In this document: piece after piece, positions 3,210 through 9,798 of the stretch | Layout: each line of letters opens with the position of its first letter | Numbering within the stretch: the first letter of the stretch is position 1 | Assembly: GCA_003555025.1 (NCBI GenBank) | Contig: PWHV01000031.1 | Span: forward strand, 1-53,624 | Direction: 5' to 3' | DNA length: 53,624 bases | Origin: Methanomassiliicoccaceae archaeon | GTDB taxonomy: Archaea; Thermoplasmatota; Thermoplasmata; Methanomassiliicoccales; Methanomethylophilaceae | Made by a program: the position numbers and the translations under genes | The notes under the pieces: generated by a model | Databases searched by the model: none | What the model was told of the DNA's origin: nothing | What the model saw: only the letters and a program-made list of their open reading frames with translations

Positions 3210-4289
3210 ATGATTAGGTTCGGTCCGGCTGGTATTCCACTTTCTTGCAAAGGTCGCACATTGAAGGACGGCATCGAGGACGTCCATAACCTGGGCCTCA
3301 GCGCTCTGGAGGTCCAGATGGTGAGGACCAACATCATCGAGCGTTATCCTGAAGAAGAGGAGATAGGCCTCACGATGTCCCAGCTCGAAGGGGGGCTGGT
3401 GGTGGAGCTCATCAGGGATGACGGCGGCGAGGATGTGAGCGTAAACGACCCCGAGGCCGAGGTGGACGAGGACGATATCCTCATATGCATGGGCTCGGGC
3501 GTCACCAACAGCTATGACGAGCTGCTGAGCATCGGCCGCCTGGCCAAGCAGCTGGACGTGTCCTTGTCCATGCACACACCCTACTACATGGACCTGGCGG
3601 CCCGCAACGAGCTCAGCGCCAAGTGCATCGACTCCATCCGCTGGTCGGGCTTCATGACCCATGCTCTGCAAGGGGATATCGTGGTGACCCACATGGGCCT
3701 CTACGGGGGCCGCGGCCAACGCGAGACCGCGGAGCTGGTCACCGAGAGCCTCACCGATGTGATGGCATGGTGGGAGGACAACAACATATCCCCCCGCCTC
3801 GGCCTGGAGGTCTCGGGGAGGCAGGAGGTCTTCGGCTCCTTGGACGAGATAATGGAGATCTGCGATTCGCTCGACAAAGTGGTGCCGGTTATAAACTTCC
3901 CCCACTATCACGCCCGCGAGGGGGGCGCCCTCATGGAGGCGGCGGACTTCGCCGAGCTCTTCGACCGGGTGCACGACCGCGTGGGCGGAAGGTTCCATGC
4001 CCATTTCGCCGGCGTGGAGCACGAGGGCTTCAACGAGAAGCGCCTCACACCCATCAAGAAGGGCGACCTGCGCTTCGAGCCGCTGGCGGAGGCGCTGGTG
4101 GACAAGAAGCCGGAGATGACGATCATCTCCAGCTCGCCGCTCCTGGAGCATGACGCCATGTACATGAAGGTCATCCACGAGAGGGTGCTCACCCGAAGGG
4201 TGGTCAAGGCCTTGCGCAAGAAGGGCAAGACGGTGGCGGACACGGCCGAGGGGGCCTACGAGAGCGAGTACGAGGACGAGGAGCAATGA
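3210..4289 (+). CDS. Endonuclease IV-like TIM-barrel protein
   Basis: A 359-residue protein resembling the AP endonuclease/xylose-isomerase-like TIM-barrel superfamily and archaeal proteins annotated as probable endonuclease IV. It has metal-ligand style motifs in barrel order: SMHTPYYMDLAA, VTHMGLYGG, RLGLEVSGRQEVFGSLDEI, VINFPHYHAREGG and FHAHFAGVEHE. True endonuclease IV cuts DNA 5' of abasic sites using three metal ions; whether this member does so cannot be told from sequence. The C-terminus is an acidic tail rich in Glu and Asp. The stop overlaps the start of hxlB (ATGATGA), so both are co-translated. A GGTGA ribosome-binding site precedes the ATG. Confidence 0.7.
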   Translation: MIRFGPAGIPLSCKGRTLKDGIEDVHNLGLSALEVQMVRTNIIERYPEEEEIGLTMSQLEGGLVVELIRDDGGEDVSVNDPEAEVDEDDILICMGSGVTNSYDELLSIGRLAKQLDVSLSMHTPYYMDLAARNELSAKCIDSIRWSGFMTHALQGDIVVTHMGLYGGRGQRETAELVTESLTDVMAWWEDNNISPRLGLEVSGRQEVFGSLDEIMEICDSLDKVVPVINFPHYHAREGGALMEAADFAELFDRVHDRVGGRFHAHFAGVEHEGFNEKRLTPIKKGDLRFEPLAEALVDKKPEMTIISSSPLLEHDAMYMKVIHERVLTRRVVKALRKKGKTVADTAEGAYESEYEDEEQ

Positions 4290-4828
4290 TGAGGACCACG
4301 GCCGATTACATCCTCAGGGAGATCGCCAATTCACTCGAAGAGATCCCTGACGGGGTCTCCGAACGATTCGTGGAGATGCTCGCCGCCGCCGGCAAGGTCT
4401 TCATCTACGGAGCGGGGAGGTCTGGCCTGGCGGGAAAGTTCTTCGCCGTCCGCCTGGTGCAGATGGGGCTCGACGTGCATTTCGTCGGCGACATGACCAC
4501 GCCCATAGTGCGCGAGGGCGACCTCACCGTCATCGTCTCCAACACCGGCGAGACCATGTCGGCGGTGCAGACCGCCAACATCTCCCGCCGCTTGGGATCG
4601 ATGGTGGTGGGCGTGACCGCCGACGACGACAGCAAGCTGGGCCAAGCGTCCAACCTGGTGGTCCCCATCATCCAGCCCTGCAACGGAGACAAGAAGAGGA
4701 TGGCCCCCCTGGGGACGCTCTTCGAGGACGCCGTTGCCATATTCTTCGACAGCCTGGTGCCGCCCCTTATGGAGCGCCTGCAGCAGGACGAGGCGGACAT
4801 GCGGCACCGCCACGCCATCTGGGTCTAG
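4286..4828 (+). CDS. hxlB: 6-phospho-3-hexuloisomerase (SIS domain)
   Basis: A 180-residue SIS-fold protein. FIYGAGRSGLAGKFFAVRL is the phosphosugar-binding start, IVSNTGETMSAV follows, and the C-terminus carries MRHRHAIWV, equivalent to the family's conserved RHANLE-like end. It interconverts fructose 6-phosphate and 3-hexulose 6-phosphate, the reverse ribulose monophosphate route that many archaea use to make pentoses. No hexulose-phosphate synthase gene is in the window. It overlaps the preceding gene by 4 nt, and its 3' end meets the convergent JAMM gene with a 4-nt overlap. Confidence 0.88.
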   Translation: MMRTTADYILREIANSLEEIPDGVSERFVEMLAAAGKVFIYGAGRSGLAGKFFAVRLVQMGLDVHFVGDMTTPIVREGDLTVIVSNTGETMSAVQTANISRRLGSMVVGVTADDDSKLGQASNLVVPIIQPCNGDKKRMAPLGTLFEDAVAIFFDSLVPPLMERLQQDEADMRHRHAIWV

Positions 4829-5424
4829 CCGCGGTAAGGGTCCTGGTGCAGGTCCCAGTACACGCCCATGGGCCGCAGCTCCACCTTCCCGTCCCGCAGG
4901 CGGTAGGCCTCCAGCTCACGCCGCACCGGGTCGAGCACGATGGCTGAGTGGTGCGGCAGCTTGAAGGCCGCATCCTGGGTGCGGACGTCGGTCTCGGACA
5001 TGAAGCAGCCGATGCCGGGATGGGAGTGGTACCAGCCCACTATCGAGTACTCGAAGTCGAGGTCGTCCAGGGACTCGAAGAGCCCCTCGAAGCCGTCCTG
5101 GTGGAAGCGGACCCGCGACAGGCTGGCCTCCAGGTCGGTGGTGACCACGTCGCGGACGACGGCGAAAGCCCTACCCTCCCATACGAAGCTGCCGCCCAGC
5201 ATCAGGCCCATCACCTCCTCGGAACGCGCCAGCCCCGCCATGGCGTGGTTGCGCATCTTCTCCTCGGCGGTCCGCTGCACGTAGAGCGGCAGGCAGGAGC
5301 GGTCCCGTTGATAGGCCTCCTTCATGCGCCCGGTGAACCAGCTGTGGTTCGATATCCTGTCCCCGGGCGGCGGAGGGCTCTCGCGGGGGGTGGAGTCCTT
5401 CCAGGAGGTTATCTTCGCTGGCAT
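4825..5424 (-). CDS. JAMM/MPN+ metalloprotease, probable deconjugase of the Ubl system
   Basis: A 199-residue protein with a complete JAMM zinc-protease motif: Glu near residue 70 (SEEVMGLMLGG), then His133-Ser-His135-Pro (YHSHPGIGCFMSETD), Ser143 and Asp146, fitting E-x(n)-H-x-H-x(7)-S-x(2)-D. Such enzymes (Rpn11, AMSH, archaeal JAMM1/HvJAMM1) cleave isopeptide or linear bonds after the C-terminal Gly of ubiquitin-like proteins. The first ~45 residues are Pro/Arg-rich and probably disordered. Its start overlaps the E2 gene by 16 nt, so it is the third gene of the Ubl-E2-JAMM unit. The partner Ubl already ends in Gly-Gly, so removal from targets is the likelier job than maturation; that is inference. 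Confidence 0.9.
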   Translation of the reverse strand: MPAKITSWKDSTPRESPPPPGDRISNHSWFTGRMKEAYQRDRSCLPLYVQRTAEEKMRNHAMAGLARSEEVMGLMLGGSFVWEGRAFAVVRDVVTTDLEASLSRVRFHQDGFEGLFESLDDLDFEYSIVGWYHSHPGIGCFMSETDVRTQDAAFKLPHHSAIVLDPVRRELEAYRLRDGKVELRPMGVYWDLHQDPYRG

Positions 5425-5924
5425 CTCTCCACGATCCTCGGCCGGGGGCGCACTATACTGGGCCCCGCGTCGACACGGTTGCGGTTAAAGTATTCCGCCG
5501 CGGCGGTGCAGCTCTCGGTGCCGAAGGGGTTGGCGGGGTTGGGGTTGGTGAGCAGGGACTCGACCGACTTGATGAAGGAGAGCAAGGTGGAGTTGAAGGT
5601 CCAACCGTCCAACTGCTTGATGCAGACGAACCCCCCGTCCTCGGGCATCATGATGTTGGGATGGAAAACCGGCGTCTTCCAGCGCACGCGGGGCTTCTCG
5701 AACGGATAGTCCTTGCCGACGATCATGGTGAAGCGGTGGTGCCGCCTTTTCACCACCCTGCCCCCCAGCAGGGCGGGGCCTACCACGTTGTTCATCACCA
5801 CCTCCACCGCCACCGGCAGCCTTTCGAGGCCCTCCTCGGCGCATATGTCGACGCCCAGGTAGCGGGAGCAGGCCTCCAGCTCGTTGCGGAGGCGGGCCGC
5901 CATTATCTCCGGCGGCAGCGGCAT
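5409..5924 (-). CDS. Ubiquitin-conjugating enzyme (E2, UBC fold)
   Basis: A 171-residue protein with the full UBC core. DYPFEKPRVRWKTP (residues ~72-85) is followed by HPN (88-90), then the catalytic Cys101 in GGFVCIKQLDGWTF with the following Trp108, then TLLSFIKSVESLL and NPNPANPFGTES, the usual LLxxPNPxxPL segment. E2 enzymes take the activated modifier from E1 as a Cys thioester and pass it to lysines. HPN-to-Cys spacing is two residues longer than the usual 'HPNIYPTGTVCLS' pattern. A short Arg/Pro-rich tail follows the core. The ATG lies 2 nt after the Ubl stop, and the 3' end overlaps the JAMM gene. A catalytic E2 is unusual for Euryarchaeota, whose known SAMP system works without one. 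Confidence 0.92.
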   Translation of the reverse strand: MPLPPEIMAARLRNELEACSRYLGVDICAEEGLERLPVAVEVVMNNVVGPALLGGRVVKRRHHRFTMIVGKDYPFEKPRVRWKTPVFHPNIMMPEDGGFVCIKQLDGWTFNSTLLSFIKSVESLLTNPNPANPFGTESCTAAAEYFNRNRVDAGPSIVRPRPRIVERCQRR

Positions 5925-5926
5925 CC

Positions 5927-6166
5927 TCAGCCGCCCTCGGGGTCCGGTATCAGCTCCAGGACGTCCTCGCCCCTCAGCCCCGCGTCCTGGACGGTGGACT
6001 GCCCCTTGAGCAGCTTCTTACCCCGGCGGAGCACGTAGGCGCCTGCCTCTTTCTGCCAGAACTCGGCGGCCCCTTCAATGATGTCCTCGATCGTGGTGTG
6101 GGCCTCCAGCTCCATGTTCAGAGTGGAGCCGTTCTCGGCGTTCCTTATGGTCACTTCTATGGTCAC
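5927..6166 (-). CDS. Ubiquitin-like modifier ending in Gly-Gly
   Basis: A 79-residue beta-grasp protein. TIEVTIRNAENGSTLNMEL would be strands 1-2, TTIEDIIEGAAEFW the helix, AYVLRRGKKLL the strand aligned with IFAGKQL of ubiquitin, and GEDVLELIPDPEGG the last strand with the C-terminal Gly-Gly. There is no extension after the Gly-Gly, so no processing is needed before activation. The tail is acidic (PDPEGG), unlike RLRGG of ubiquitin. The start is GTG with GGTGA upstream. It heads the Ubl-E2-JAMM unit, with a TATA box at 6212-6220. It could instead be a sulfur carrier, but the adjacent E2 argues for protein conjugation. Confidence 0.9.
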   Translation of the reverse strand: MTIEVTIRNAENGSTLNMELEAHTTIEDIIEGAAEFWQKEAGAYVLRRGKKLLKGQSTVQDAGLRGEDVLELIPDPEGG

Positions 6167-6228: not shown

Positions 6229-6246
6229 TACATTTACACTACATCC
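6229..6246. promoter_or_regulatory. Putative operator, copy 1 (upstream of Ubl operon)
   Basis: TACATTTACACTACATCC lies 8 nt upstream of the Ubl TATA box and overlaps the 3' end of the E1 gene. A copy with one mismatch sits at the same 8-nt distance from the TATA box of the wHTH-TPR gene (11080-11097). Inside the motif TACAT is repeated with an 11-nt period, about one helical turn, as expected for a protein binding one DNA face. Confidence 0.5.
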
Positions 6247-7004
6247 CCATGGTTGGGGCAGTCGCGGTCGACATCCAGCTCCAGCATCATGGAGGCGCCC
6301 ATGCCGTCGTAGAACAGCATGTGCCGCACGCAGGCGTCCTCGCGCGAGCTCAGTATCTTCAGCCCCTCCCGCGCCTGCAGCGCCGCCATGGCCGCGGTGG
6401 TGCTGATCTCCGCCGCCATCGGCGGCTCGTAGTAGGAGTGGTCGCCGCCGGTGCAGCTGAACCTCCTCTCCATCACCCGATAGTGGCTGCTGTTCATCGA
6501 GCATTGCAGGCAGGGGCCGTCGGCGAGGACCACCTGCAGCTTGCCGCGGCTGCCATCGGTGCCCGCGTCCACGTAAGGCAGGCGGTGCCGGCGGCAGTGG
6601 GCGTTGAGATGCAGCCGCGCCTTGACGTTGTCGAGGCAGCCGAGGGCGAGGTCGAAACCGCCCCAATCCAGGTCGGCGTCCTCCAGCGCCGACACCATCG
6701 GCTCGACGCGGCATCCCGGTGACAGCTCCGCGGCGCGCTGTGCCAGCACCTCGGACTTGGCCAGGCCGGCGGCGGCGTCGCCGTCGCGGAAGAAGAGGCA
6801 GCGGTTGAGGTTGCTGAGCTCCACATGGTCCATGTCCACCACGGTGACGCTCCCCGCCCCGGAGAGGACAAGGTTCTTCACCGCCTCGTTGCCTAGGGCG
6901 CCCGCCCCCACCACCAGGCAGCGCGACCGACGCAGAGCTGGCAGGTCGATCCATCCCACCCGCTGGGAGCGGTCCCATCTGTCCTCCCCCCTGGACAGAG
7001 ACAT
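6234..7004 (-). CDS. E1-like ubiquitin-activating enzyme (ThiF/MoeB/UBA family)
   Basis: A 256-residue adenylating enzyme. Motifs counted from the chosen start: GAGALGNE (33-40, nucleotide binding), VTVVDMDHVELSNLNR (Asp57, Arg68), GLAKSEV (Lys83), GCLDNVKAR (Asp125), CLQC (165-168) and a C-terminal CPNH (249-252) as probable zinc ligands, plus FSCTG (Cys184) in the crossover loop as candidate thioester Cys. It would adenylate the Gly-Gly end of the neighbouring Ubl and load it for the E2. I chose the ATG at 7004: it fits family starts (EDRWDRSQRV) and lies about 26 nt after a GATATATC box, predicting a leaderless mRNA. An in-frame start at 7091 would cross that promoter. Length matches prokaryotic MoeB/UbaA rather than eukaryotic UBA1. 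Confidence 0.9.
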   Translation of the reverse strand: MSLSRGEDRWDRSQRVGWIDLPALRRSRCLVVGAGALGNEAVKNLVLSGAGSVTVVDMDHVELSNLNRCLFFRDGDAAAGLAKSEVLAQRAAELSPGCRVEPMVSALEDADLDWGGFDLALGCLDNVKARLHLNAHCRRHRLPYVDAGTDGSRGKLQVVLADGPCLQCSMNSSHYRVMERRFSCTGGDHSYYEPPMAAEISTTAAMAALQAREGLKILSSREDACVRHMLFYDGMGASMMLELDVDRDCPNHGDVV

Positions 7005-7110: not shown

Positions 7111-8235
7111 ATGAGCCCGGAATTCAAGGTAACCCCCTGGGAGGTCAGCGGTGAAGTGGACTACGACGTCCTGGTGGAGCGTTTCGGGACCAACCGCATC
7201 GACGACCCCCTCAAGGAGAGGATCGCCTCCTACGGCGCGAACCACACCCTGCTGAGGCGGAACGTGTTCTATTCGCACCGCGACATGAACTGGCTCCTGG
7301 ACCTCTATGACAAAGGGAAGCCGTTCTTCCTCTACACCGGCCGCGGGCCGTCGGGGGACACCCACCTCGGCCATCTCATGCCCTGGATATTCGCCAAGCA
7401 CCTGCAGGACGCCTTCGGAGCCACCATCTACTTCCAGCTCACCGACGACGAGAAGTACCTGTTCCGCTCCGACCTGGAGATGGAGGACACCCGCTCCATG
7501 GCCTACCACAACGCCCTGGACTTCCTCGCTCTGGGCTTCGACCCGGAGAGGACGAGGATAATATTGGACACCGAGAACATCCACCGCCTCTATCCCCTGG
7601 CGCTCAAAGTCGCCAAGAGGGTGACCTTCTCCACCGCGCGGGCGGTGTTCGGCTTCGACAACAGCAACAACATCGGCTCCATCTTCTACACGTCCATACA
7701 GGCGGCGCCATGCTTCATCGAGTCGGAGATGAAGGGGGAGAACATCCCCTGCCTCATACCCTGCGGCATCGACCAAGACCCCCATTTCCGCGTCGCCCGC
7801 GACGTCGCGCCCGTCCTCGGATACTACAAGCCGGCGCTGATCCACAACAAGATGTTCCCCGGCCTGGAGGGCGGGGACAAGATGTCCTCCTCCAGCCCGG
7901 AGACCACCATCTACACCACCGATTCGCCCAAGGCGGTGAAGCGCAAGGTGGGCAAGGCCTTCACCGGCGGGCGCGTCTCCGCCGAGGAGCAGCGTGTGGA
8001 GGGAGGGAACCCCGAGGTCTGCGCCGTGTTCAAGTACAAGTTCTTCCTCTTCGAGGAGGACGACGGCAAGCTGGACGAGCTGGTGGGACGTTGCCGCAGC
8101 GGTGACATCCTCTGCGGGGAGTGCAAGGCCGCCCTCAGCGCCAAGATCATCGATTTCCTCGGTGAGCACCAGCGCCGCCGCGAGGAGGCCAAGGGGTTCA
8201 TCGGCGACGTCACACTGGATGGCTTCGAATGGTGA
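7111..8235 (+). CDS. trpS: Tryptophanyl-tRNA synthetase
   Basis: A 374-residue class I synthetase of the archaeal/eukaryotic TrpRS type. GPSGDTHLGH (about 79-88) is the HIGH-type motif, GLEGGDKMSSS is the KMSKS motif, and CGIDQDPHFRVARDVA is the family's tryptophan-pocket and helix segment. It charges tRNA-Trp, whose gene is also in this window (52528-52697). It is divergent from the E1 gene and is followed by pheS on the same strand, which has its own promoter. Length is typical. Confidence 0.96.
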   Translation: MSPEFKVTPWEVSGEVDYDVLVERFGTNRIDDPLKERIASYGANHTLLRRNVFYSHRDMNWLLDLYDKGKPFFLYTGRGPSGDTHLGHLMPWIFAKHLQDAFGATIYFQLTDDEKYLFRSDLEMEDTRSMAYHNALDFLALGFDPERTRIILDTENIHRLYPLALKVAKRVTFSTARAVFGFDNSNNIGSIFYTSIQAAPCFIESEMKGENIPCLIPCGIDQDPHFRVARDVAPVLGYYKPALIHNKMFPGLEGGDKMSSSSPETTIYTTDSPKAVKRKVGKAFTGGRVSAEEQRVEGGNPEVCAVFKYKFFLFEEDDGKLDELVGRCRSGDILCGECKAALSAKIIDFLGEHQRRREEAKGFIGDVTLDGFEW

Positions 8236-8248
8236 GGCCTGAAAAAAC

Positions 8249-8256
8249 CTTATAAC
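8249..8256 (+). promoter_or_regulatory. TATA box of pheS
   Basis: CTTATAAC, with a run of A just upstream, centred 25 nt before the ATG at 8278. It predicts a leaderless mRNA and rules out the in-frame ATG at 8263. Confidence 0.6.
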
Positions 8257-8277
8257 CGTTACATGTTACCAAGTGCC

Positions 8278-9798
8278 ATGAGCCCCCCGAGCGTCCTGGA
8301 CGGCCTGAGCCACAACGAGAAGAGGCTCCTCTTGGAACTGGACAAGGAGGACGGTCGCGCCAGCCCCGCCCGCATCCTGGAGGCCTCCGATTTCGGGCTC
8401 GAGGTGGAGATCATGAACTCCGCCTCCTGGCTGCAGACCAAGGGGCTGCTGAGCATCGAGGAGAGCAGCGAGCGGATATTCACCCTGGGCGATCGCTCCG
8501 CCGTCGACGAGGGGCTGCCCGAGCGCCGCGCCTTGAAGGTCATCGACGAGGCGGGCGGGGAGATGGAGATGTCCCGCCTCTCCCAGGAGCTGGGCGCGGA
8601 GGAGGTCAAACTGGCCGTAGGCTGGCTGAAGCGCAAGGGCCTGGCGGACATCGTCCGCGACGGCGACGCCAAGAACCTCAGTCTCACCGCGGAGGGAAGG
8701 GAAACGCTCGAGCGGACGATGGAGGACGAGGAGCTCCTGGAGCGCATCGCCGAGGGCCCGCTGTCGGAGAGGGACGCCCCCGCCGAGCTGCTGAAGGCCC
8801 TCAGCGGCCGCGGCGGCCTGGTGCGGGAGGAGCTGAGGACCAGCCGCGTGCTGCAGCTCACCGCCGCGGGCGAGGATGCCGTGCGGGCCGGGATAGAGCT
8901 GAAGGAGGAGCTGGTGCAGCTCACCCCCGAGTTGCTGCAGACCGGTCGCTGGAGGGACAAGGAGTTCCGCCGCTACGACGTCAGCACTTTCGCGCCCGCG
9001 GCACATCCCGCCAAGAGGCACCCGCTCACCCGCCTGGGTGAGCGCATCAGGTCGATATTCGTGCAGATGGGCTTCGCTGAGATCGAGGAGGAGTACGTCC
9101 AGTCGGCGTTCTGGAACATGGACGTGCTGTTCACCCCCCAGGACCATCCCGCCCGCGACCTCCACGACACCTTCTTCCTCGAGGACCCGGCATCGGTGGA
9201 ACTCGAGGACGAGGAGCTGGTGGAGAGGGTCCGCCGCATCCACGTCGACGGCGGGGACACCGGGTCGGCGGGATGGGGGGGCGAATGGTCGAAGGAGGCC
9301 GCCGCCAAGGCGCTGCTGCGCACCCACACCACCGTGAACACCATCAAGTACCTGGCCAATAACCCCGACGCCCCCTCCAAGGTCTTCTCACTGGCGAGGC
9401 TGCACCGCAACGAGGCGATCGACGCCACCCATCTGCCGGAGTTCACGCAGATCGAGGGCATAGTGGTGGACGAGAACGGCAGCTTCGACATGTTGGTGTC
9501 CATCCTGCAGGAGTTCTACCGCCGCATGGGCTTCGAGGAGATGCGCATCCGGCCCGCCTACTTCCCCTACACCGAGCCCTCCCTGGAGGTGGAGGTGTTC
9601 TTCAACGGCAAGTGGATGGAGCTCGGCGGCGCCGGCATCTTCCGCCCCGAGGTGGTGGCGCCGTTCGGCGTTAAGCAGCCGGTCCTCGCCTGGGGGCTGG
9701 GCTTCGAGCGGTTGGCGATGCTCACATGGGACATCAAGGACATCCGCGACCTCTACGTGAGCGACATCGACATGCTGCGCCGCAGCACGGTCTTCTGA
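8278..9798 (+). CDS. pheS: Phenylalanyl-tRNA synthetase alpha subunit
   Basis: About 506 residues. The first ~230 form winged-helix-like DNA/RNA-binding domains typical of archaeal/eukaryotic PheS. The class II catalytic domain follows, with HPLTRLGERIRSIFVQMGF, VQSAFWNMDVLFTPQDHPARD, HTTVNTIKYLAN, FTQIEGIVVD and motif 3 GLGFERLAMLTWDIKDIRDLY. It forms a heterotetramer with PheT, whose gene is not in the window. The stop abuts the stop of the convergent wHTH-TPR gene (9799). Confidence 0.96.
   Translation: MSPPSVLDGLSHNEKRLLLELDKEDGRASPARILEASDFGLEVEIMNSASWLQTKGLLSIEESSERIFTLGDRSAVDEGLPERRALKVIDEAGGEMEMSRLSQELGAEEVKLAVGWLKRKGLADIVRDGDAKNLSLTAEGRETLERTMEDEELLERIAEGPLSERDAPAELLKALSGRGGLVREELRTSRVLQLTAAGEDAVRAGIELKEELVQLTPELLQTGRWRDKEFRRYDVSTFAPAAHPAKRHPLTRLGERIRSIFVQMGFAEIEEEYVQSAFWNMDVLFTPQDHPARDLHDTFFLEDPASVELEDEELVERVRRIHVDGGDTGSAGWGGEWSKEAAAKALLRTHTTVNTIKYLANNPDAPSKVFSLARLHRNEAIDATHLPEFTQIEGIVVDENGSFDMLVSILQEFYRRMGFEEMRIRPAYFPYTEPSLEVEVFFNGKWMELGGAGIFRPEVVAPFGVKQPVLAWGLGFERLAMLTWDIKDIRDLYVSDIDMLRRSTVF

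Follow-up and report, generated by a model that had tools for sequence, protein, structure and literature searches.

A predicted ubiquitin-like conjugation operon with an invariant acidic Gly-Gly tail in Thermoplasmatota

A predicted archaeal conjugation operon beside the described systems

Most descriptions of bona fide archaeal E1-E2-RING-JAMM systems reportedly concern Aigarchaeota and Asgard archaea. The ubiquitin operons of Caldiarchaeum and Asgard archaea comprise a ubiquitin-like modifier (Ubl) ending in Gly-Gly, an E1, an E2, an Rpn11-like JAMM metalloprotease, these four of clearly eukaryote-like character, and a RING protein (PMC5654768, PMC6043591). Caldiarchaeum offers a working precedent for such conjugation (PMC5654768). 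In a survey from 2014, Euryarchaeota were credited with it only via one marine single-cell genome (PMC4327156), and among the searchable open-access papers we found none that links a system of this kind to Methanomassiliicoccales or Thermoplasmatota. Eukaryotic ubiquitin and NEDD8 (UBA1, UBA3, UBE2A, Rpn11) share the cascade logic and provide the best solved-structure matches to the E1, E2 and JAMM discussed here. The SAMP/UbaA/HvJAMM1 system of Haloferax, MoaD-MoeB and ThiS-ThiF have a Gly-Gly beta-grasp modifier, a ThiF-fold E1 and a JAMM desampylase in common with the present locus, but operate without E2 or RING.

The window, i.e., the whole stretch of 53,624 nucleotides that was analysed, carries on one strand the genes for an E1, a Ubl (gene 2), an E2 and a JAMM protein, with their catalytic residues intact. 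Its features are as follows.

6234..7004, minus strand: E1 of the ThiF fold (Pfam ThiF 1.6e-45), with a probable ATG at 7004 and an open frame from TTG 7091
6453-6455, minus strand: E1 catalytic Cys213, assigned by conservation (residue numbers counted from the TTG)
within 6234..7004, minus strand: E1 zinc ligands C194/C197/C278/H281, invariant (numbering from the TTG)
5927..6166, minus strand: Ubl modifier gene, an open reading frame of 79 aa with a GTG start at 6166, ubiquitin-like beta-grasp, stopping at Gly-Gly
5409..5924, minus strand: E2 with UBC fold and HPN motif (Pfam UQ_con 7e-14; UBE2A/B as the closest PDB chains)
5622-5624, minus strand: E2 catalytic Cys101, assigned by conservation
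4825..5424, minus strand: JAMM metalloprotease, Rpn11-like (Pfam JAB 5e-14)
4987-5028, minus strand: HxH...SxxD motif of the JAMM protein, intact in the window
3210..4828, plus strand: flanking endonuclease-IV-like and SIS-domain genes, outside the system and a synteny anchor (both names rest on our reading of the sequences)
7111..9798, plus strand: flanking TrpS and PheS genes, outside the system and a synteny anchor

The genes are tightly packed, the E2 beginning 2 bases past the Ubl stop and the JAMM gene overlapping the E2. The order E1-Ubl-E2 is found in 50/50 loci, with the JAMM gene fourth (degenerate in loci L049 and L050), and across the operon loci the HPN motif and Cys101 of the E2 (50/50), as well as Cys213 and the zinc ligands of the E1, are invariant. 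The ThiF, UQ_con and JAB matches lie far over the Pfam cut-offs. For the Ubl, the Pfam matches stay under the threshold (Rad60-SLD 0.003, ubiquitin 0.018), and its family profile matches ubiquitin among the solved structures of the PDB. Strands and helices follow one another as in ubiquitin in the Ubl part of an AlphaFold model of ortholog L014, for which the in-frame stop was read through so that E1 and Ubl form one chain; both domains are modelled confidently (pTM 0.79; pLDDT 78 for the last ten residues), and a structure search with this chain recovers the E1 part only. The nearest PDB chain of the JAMM protein is Rpn11 (2e-24), followed by the Rpn11 of Caldiarchaeum (2.6e-19), with CSN5 also behind Rpn11, and its motif is intact in all genera except one (g13). 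Unlike eukaryotic UBA1 and UBA3, the E1 is a single chain of 256 aa that lacks both the UFD and the large Cys domain.

Judged from the predicted proteins, the system is built like the ubiquitin system of Caldiarchaeum (a Ubl fold with Gly-Gly, an E1 with its Cys, a UBC E2 with HPN and Cys, a JAMM of Rpn11 type), from which it differs in its lineage, the order of its genes, the charge of its tail and RING linkage. The lineage here is Thermoplasmatota, mostly Methanomassiliicoccales, the E1-Ubl-E2-JAMM order lies on a single strand, and the tail reads PDPEGG where the mass-spectrometry remnant of Caldiarchaeum is written TVGG. Instead of a small RING gene inside the operon, where none was found, there is an unlinked one that co-occurs with E2 and often has a putative N-terminal membrane segment. 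We propose, with a probability of about 80%, that the locus belongs to a tail-reading, E1-E2-RING-JAMM Ubl conjugation system of Thermoplasmatota that is mainly inherited vertically.

The E2 is present in 52/61 relatives. Relatives of the E2 occur on 133 genome contigs, and the best 80 of the 133 look like Thermoplasmatota by title, although some of these records are titled just Euryarchaeota or archaeon. By such titles the system is found mostly in Methanomassiliicoccales, plus other Thermoplasmatota, and the Ubl profile reaches 86/390 genomes of the phylum. The endonuclease-IV-like and SIS neighbours flank intact and decayed loci alike. As its distribution indicates, the system is chromosomal and mainly vertically inherited, with losses.

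Both modifier and protease domains were also observed within longer proteins. In L103:3998-5062 (minus strand), L104:3173-4240 and L106:3107-4237 the Ubl forms the C-terminal domain of a protein of 355-377 residues, which contains a double zinc ribbon and DUF835 and ends in PDPEGG plus one residue. JAMM domains lie inside proteins of 347-884 residues at L103:835-3471 (minus strand), L106:4785-6671 and L117:4414-5454, with a weak zinc-ribbon/TackOD1-like match after the JAMM in L103.

The acidic tail and its candidate reader in the E1

Two further features bear on how the modifier could be recognized.

5930..5947, minus strand: PDPEGG tail of the Ubl, defined by conservation and codons (registered by counting back from the terminal Gly-Gly)
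6540-6542, minus strand: E1 K184, assigned by conservation (numbering from the TTG)

The Ubl ends in ...ELIPDPEGG, its tail being encoded 5' to 3' on the minus strand by CCG GAC CCC GAG GGC GGC TGA with the stop codon TGA at 5929-5927, so that the earlier note, which did not name the strand, was correct in stating that the window gene ends exactly in Gly-Gly. Counted back from this Gly-Gly, D75 corresponds to Arg72 of ubiquitin, E77 to Arg74 and G78-G79 to G75-G76. The RLRGG of ubiquitin, with Arg72, is absent and replaced by PDPEGG, in which the residue at the Arg72 position is Asp or Glu in 120/120 distinct orthologs (at position 75, 119 of them have Asp and one has Glu, hence always an acidic residue). 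Position 77 is more permissive, with Glu in 114, Gln in 4 and Val in 2 of the same 120. The last six columns are 100/99/100/95/100/100% identical, compared with a median of 64% in the other columns, and the acidic character of the tail, also claimed previously, thus extends nearly unchanged over the whole set. Within the genus and the family, the tail codons vary synonymously (CCG/CCT/CCA, GGC/GGT/GGA) and the amino acids are unchanged, meaning that selection acts at the protein level. The PDPEGG tail is under strong selection and not a product of chance.

It could still be argued that the acidic residues drift within a short linker and that Gly-Gly alone matters. Replacement of E77 by Gln or Val in 6/120 orthologs does show that charge is not essential at that position, but across the phylum Pro74, Asp75 and Pro76 show 99-100% invariance with synonymous changes in their codons, and in decayed Ubls the IPDP part outlasts Gly-Gly for a while, making drift an unlikely explanation.

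A reader for the tail is suggested by the E1. In eukaryotic E1s, the gate residue Gln608 of UBA1 or Arg190 of UBA3 reads residue 72 of the modifier, which is Arg72 in ubiquitin and Ala72 in NEDD8; PDB entries among the structure matches name this subject in their titles. The window E1 aligns with human UBA1 free of gaps in this region, placing Gln186 on Gln608, at the gate of the eukaryotic E1s, and K184 on Asn606. Position 184 is basic in 105/105 E1s (80 Lys, 25 Arg). This charge-conserved position, two residues before the gate and on a strand, is expected to face the same side. Compared with the eukaryotic pair, Asp stands at the Arg72 position of the modifier and K184 where UBA1 has Asn606. 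From position and charge we infer that D75 of the Ubl contacts K184 of the E1, which would make the E1/Ubl pair specific. The proposal that the acidic tail is matched by the E1 has accordingly gained an invariant basic residue beside the gate, and the contact itself is predicted. The covariation between tail and E1 that the earlier note had suggested examining gives no information, since there is hardly any variation in either of them, D75 and K184 being conserved in kind.

In two species of genus g13 (loci L049 and L095), E77 has become Gln, and in the E1 of the same species R210 is replaced by Thr and position 43 by Glu; the sister locus L050, with PDPEGG, retains R210. Five E1s lose R210 without any change of the tail. 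The E77/R210 pair of g13 is possibly a compensatory change, amounting to one event.

Probable processing of the modifier and natural losses of E1 and E2

The window gene and its close relatives have their stop directly after Gly-Gly, which is no family-wide trait: 49/105 orthologs stop at Gly-Gly and 56/105 bear 1-9 residues beyond it, as does L016 with its tail YSGPPL. The extension state switched at least 8 times on the E1+E2 tree, compared with about 35 switches when shuffled. C-terminal Ubl extensions in part of the family are a feature shared with Caldiarchaeum and Asgard archaea, and in Caldiarchaeum Rpn11 removes a nine-residue extension before activation (PMC5654768, PMC6043591). Since more than half of the orthologs are extended, the JAMM protein is probably also a precursor maturase, so that in the family as a whole it would probably act as both maturase and deconjugase. 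The earlier note had reasoned that no protease is needed to expose Gly-Gly and that the JAMM gene serves deconjugation, naming long extensions as evidence against this. The first statement holds for the window genome, where the stop exposes Gly-Gly, and the second is the expectation there, but the 56 orthologs with extensions do not support them as a rule for the family. In the window genus there is no extension to remove and the HxH...SxxD motif is kept, and deconjugation is the expected remaining role of the JAMM protein.

Alternatively, the JAMM protein might mainly process precursors, with the exact Gly-Gly end a recent accident and deconjugation not its role. The extended orthologs agree with this, as does genus g13 (L049, L050, L095), in which the JAMM lacks its catalytic zinc ligands and no residue follows Gly-Gly in any of the three Ubls (3/3). 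The combination of a dead JAMM with an extension-free Ubl fits, but it represents a single lineage and is not significant, and roughly every second Ubl has an exact end in any case. On the other hand, some half of the orthologs, and the window genus too, have nothing to process and an intact JAMM motif, and we regard processing as the main function as improbable.

The strongest test comes from natural losses, which support a functional Gly-Gly. Genome-wide searches identified as lacking an E2 13 genomes of g4 as well as G186, G036, G335, G006, G028, G402, G050, G053, G041 and G404. Several of the g4 genomes are single contigs, thus the absence of E2 is no assembly gap. Gly-Gly is kept in 124/124 distinct Ubls from E2-bearing genomes and lost in 14/15 Ubls from E2-less genomes (Fisher p about 3e-18, uncorrected for kinship), with at least 3 separate losses. 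The tails without Gly-Gly read PDPDSD, PDPVLS, PDPSML or PDPEGF, and ...LVHER in G050, the IPDP part persisting for a while even where Gly-Gly was lost. The G050 remnant (L094) sits between the genes for endonuclease IV, SIS, TrpS and PheS, as in the window, and the same neighbours identify it as a remnant in place; in g4, too, Gly-Gly was lost at the syntenic locus. Orthologs lacking Gly-Gly, which had been named beforehand as evidence against the note's reading, do exist, but they are confined to genomes that have lost E1 and E2, and this confinement strengthens the functional reading. The exception is G404, which retains Gly-Gly without E1 and E2. At its locus L102 (G404:C39:57521-65754) the Ubl is intact, E1 and E2 are gone and the JAMM gene is truncated with a stop, apparently a case of recent decay.

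The remnant Ubl of g4 is followed at most loci by a protein of 114-128 residues, and of 275-276 residues in two, which hhalign identifies as a degenerate JAMM (probability 96.6, E 5e-10). Across g4 (L081-L092, e.g., L087:3998-4653) the Ubl without Gly-Gly, mostly accompanied by this motif-less JAMM, is conserved after the loss of E1 and E2. This suggests a second, non-covalent function for the pair.

A candidate E3 and the proposed cascade as a whole

In the window genome the sole zf-RING_2 match over the cut-off is L217 (G000:C7:66615-67154, minus strand), and 14 control genomes gave none. In this protein, zinc ribbons come after a RING-like C4HC3 finger. A match covering the RING was found in 51/53 E2-bearing versus 1/22 E2-less genomes (Fisher p about 3e-15), the two E2-bearing genomes without it being 73%-complete drafts. 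On the PheS tree, E2 and RING change 8 times each. Among independent pairs on supported branches 4/5 agree and 0 disagree, and 5/5 agree when the doubtful drafts G402 and G052 are set aside (p 0.06; the sign test ranges over p = 0.06-0.125). The best structural matches of the RING model are the RING domains of TRAF6, TRIM21, RNF125 and RNF13, all with E above 0.001. The unlinked RING/zinc-ribbon protein is likely the E3. A short second RING-like protein (CPICLEF...HHFHRAC) was observed in the window genome (L225, G000:C32:14090-14209) and its closest relative (L226).

A system of this composition is difficult to reconcile with a sulfur carrier, in which a Ubl thiocarboxylate would serve cofactor or tRNA thiolation (as in ThiS, MoaD and SAMP2) and conjugation would be secondary. 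The size of the E1, which is that of MoeB/ThiF, its zinc ligands, the presence of MoeB and ThiF among its structure matches and the lack of a PF02597 (ThiS/MoaD) protein in the window's genome speak for that function. Against it stand a dedicated E2 (HPN and Cys) in a conserved operon, where sulfur carriers of this kind have an E1 only, an Rpn11-like JAMM, a RING protein lost together with E2, and an operon without a sulfurtransferase gene. Besides, the nearest PDB chains place the E1 closer to UBA1 (1e-41) and UBA3 (3e-40) than to MoeB (4e-30). Its NCBIfam scores are far below the cut-offs (UbaA 81 versus 450, MoeB 98 versus 266, ThiF 110 versus 275), and the score for the curated desampylase model is likewise far below its cut-off. 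We consider the sulfur-carrier function quite improbable, more so than drift of the tail or a mainly processing JAMM. PF02597 proteins were present in 7/9 genomes searched and none in G000, where the operon Ubl may be the only such modifier.

The least probable reading, to which we give hardly any weight, is anti-phage conjugation as in the bacterial Bil/Bub/6A systems: the compact sets of four functions (Ubl, E1, E2, JAB) are alike and the E1 weakly matches the PADLOC E1-E2 models and BubCD, but the operon has no family-level match to Bil/Bub, keeps E1 and E2 as separate genes, and occurs almost throughout the order at a syntenic position next to housekeeping genes, with a record of losses and no patchy, mobile gain, so that this reading was dropped on its distribution on the tree and on the PADLOC defence models, which gave no match for Ubl or E2, a partial one for E1 and 0.0015 for JAB.

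Returning to the conjugation system, the E1 would adenylate Gly79 and take the Ubl onto Cys213, the E2 would carry it on Cys101, and the unlinked, membrane-anchored RING/zinc-ribbon protein would probably act as E3. The Rpn11-like JAMM would remove the tag and, in extended orthologs, mature the precursor. The invariant acidic tail would serve as the identity element, with D75 read by the E1 through K184 beside the gate of the Gln608/Arg190 type. Isopeptide conjugation in these archaea is what we infer from this set of proteins. A more far-reaching version is tentative and falls somewhat short of an even chance: Thermoplasmatota would run a complete cascade of their own, distinct from those of Aigarchaeota and Asgard archaea and with a membrane-bound RING protein as E3. 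Its code would be charge-inverted relative to ubiquitin, an acidic residue at position 72 being read by the Lys or Arg two residues before the gate, and where E1 and E2 were lost, the Ubl without Gly-Gly and the dead JAMM would have a second, non-covalent role.

Within Thermoplasmatota the system occurs widely. Methanomassiliicoccus, some members of which are in culture, is among its carriers and offers a cultivable archaeon for a substrate search, and the system provides an explanation, open to testing, of how an E1 recognizes its own modifier among several. The repeated natural losses serve as knock-out controls. Cleavage by Glu-C after Glu77 should leave a Gly-Gly remnant that standard reagents detect.

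Two Ubl copies per genome were observed in G065 (L108/L109), G076 (L110/L111) and G084 (L114/L115), with each copy having its own E2 in G065 and G076, and these doubled loci are possibly paralogous systems.
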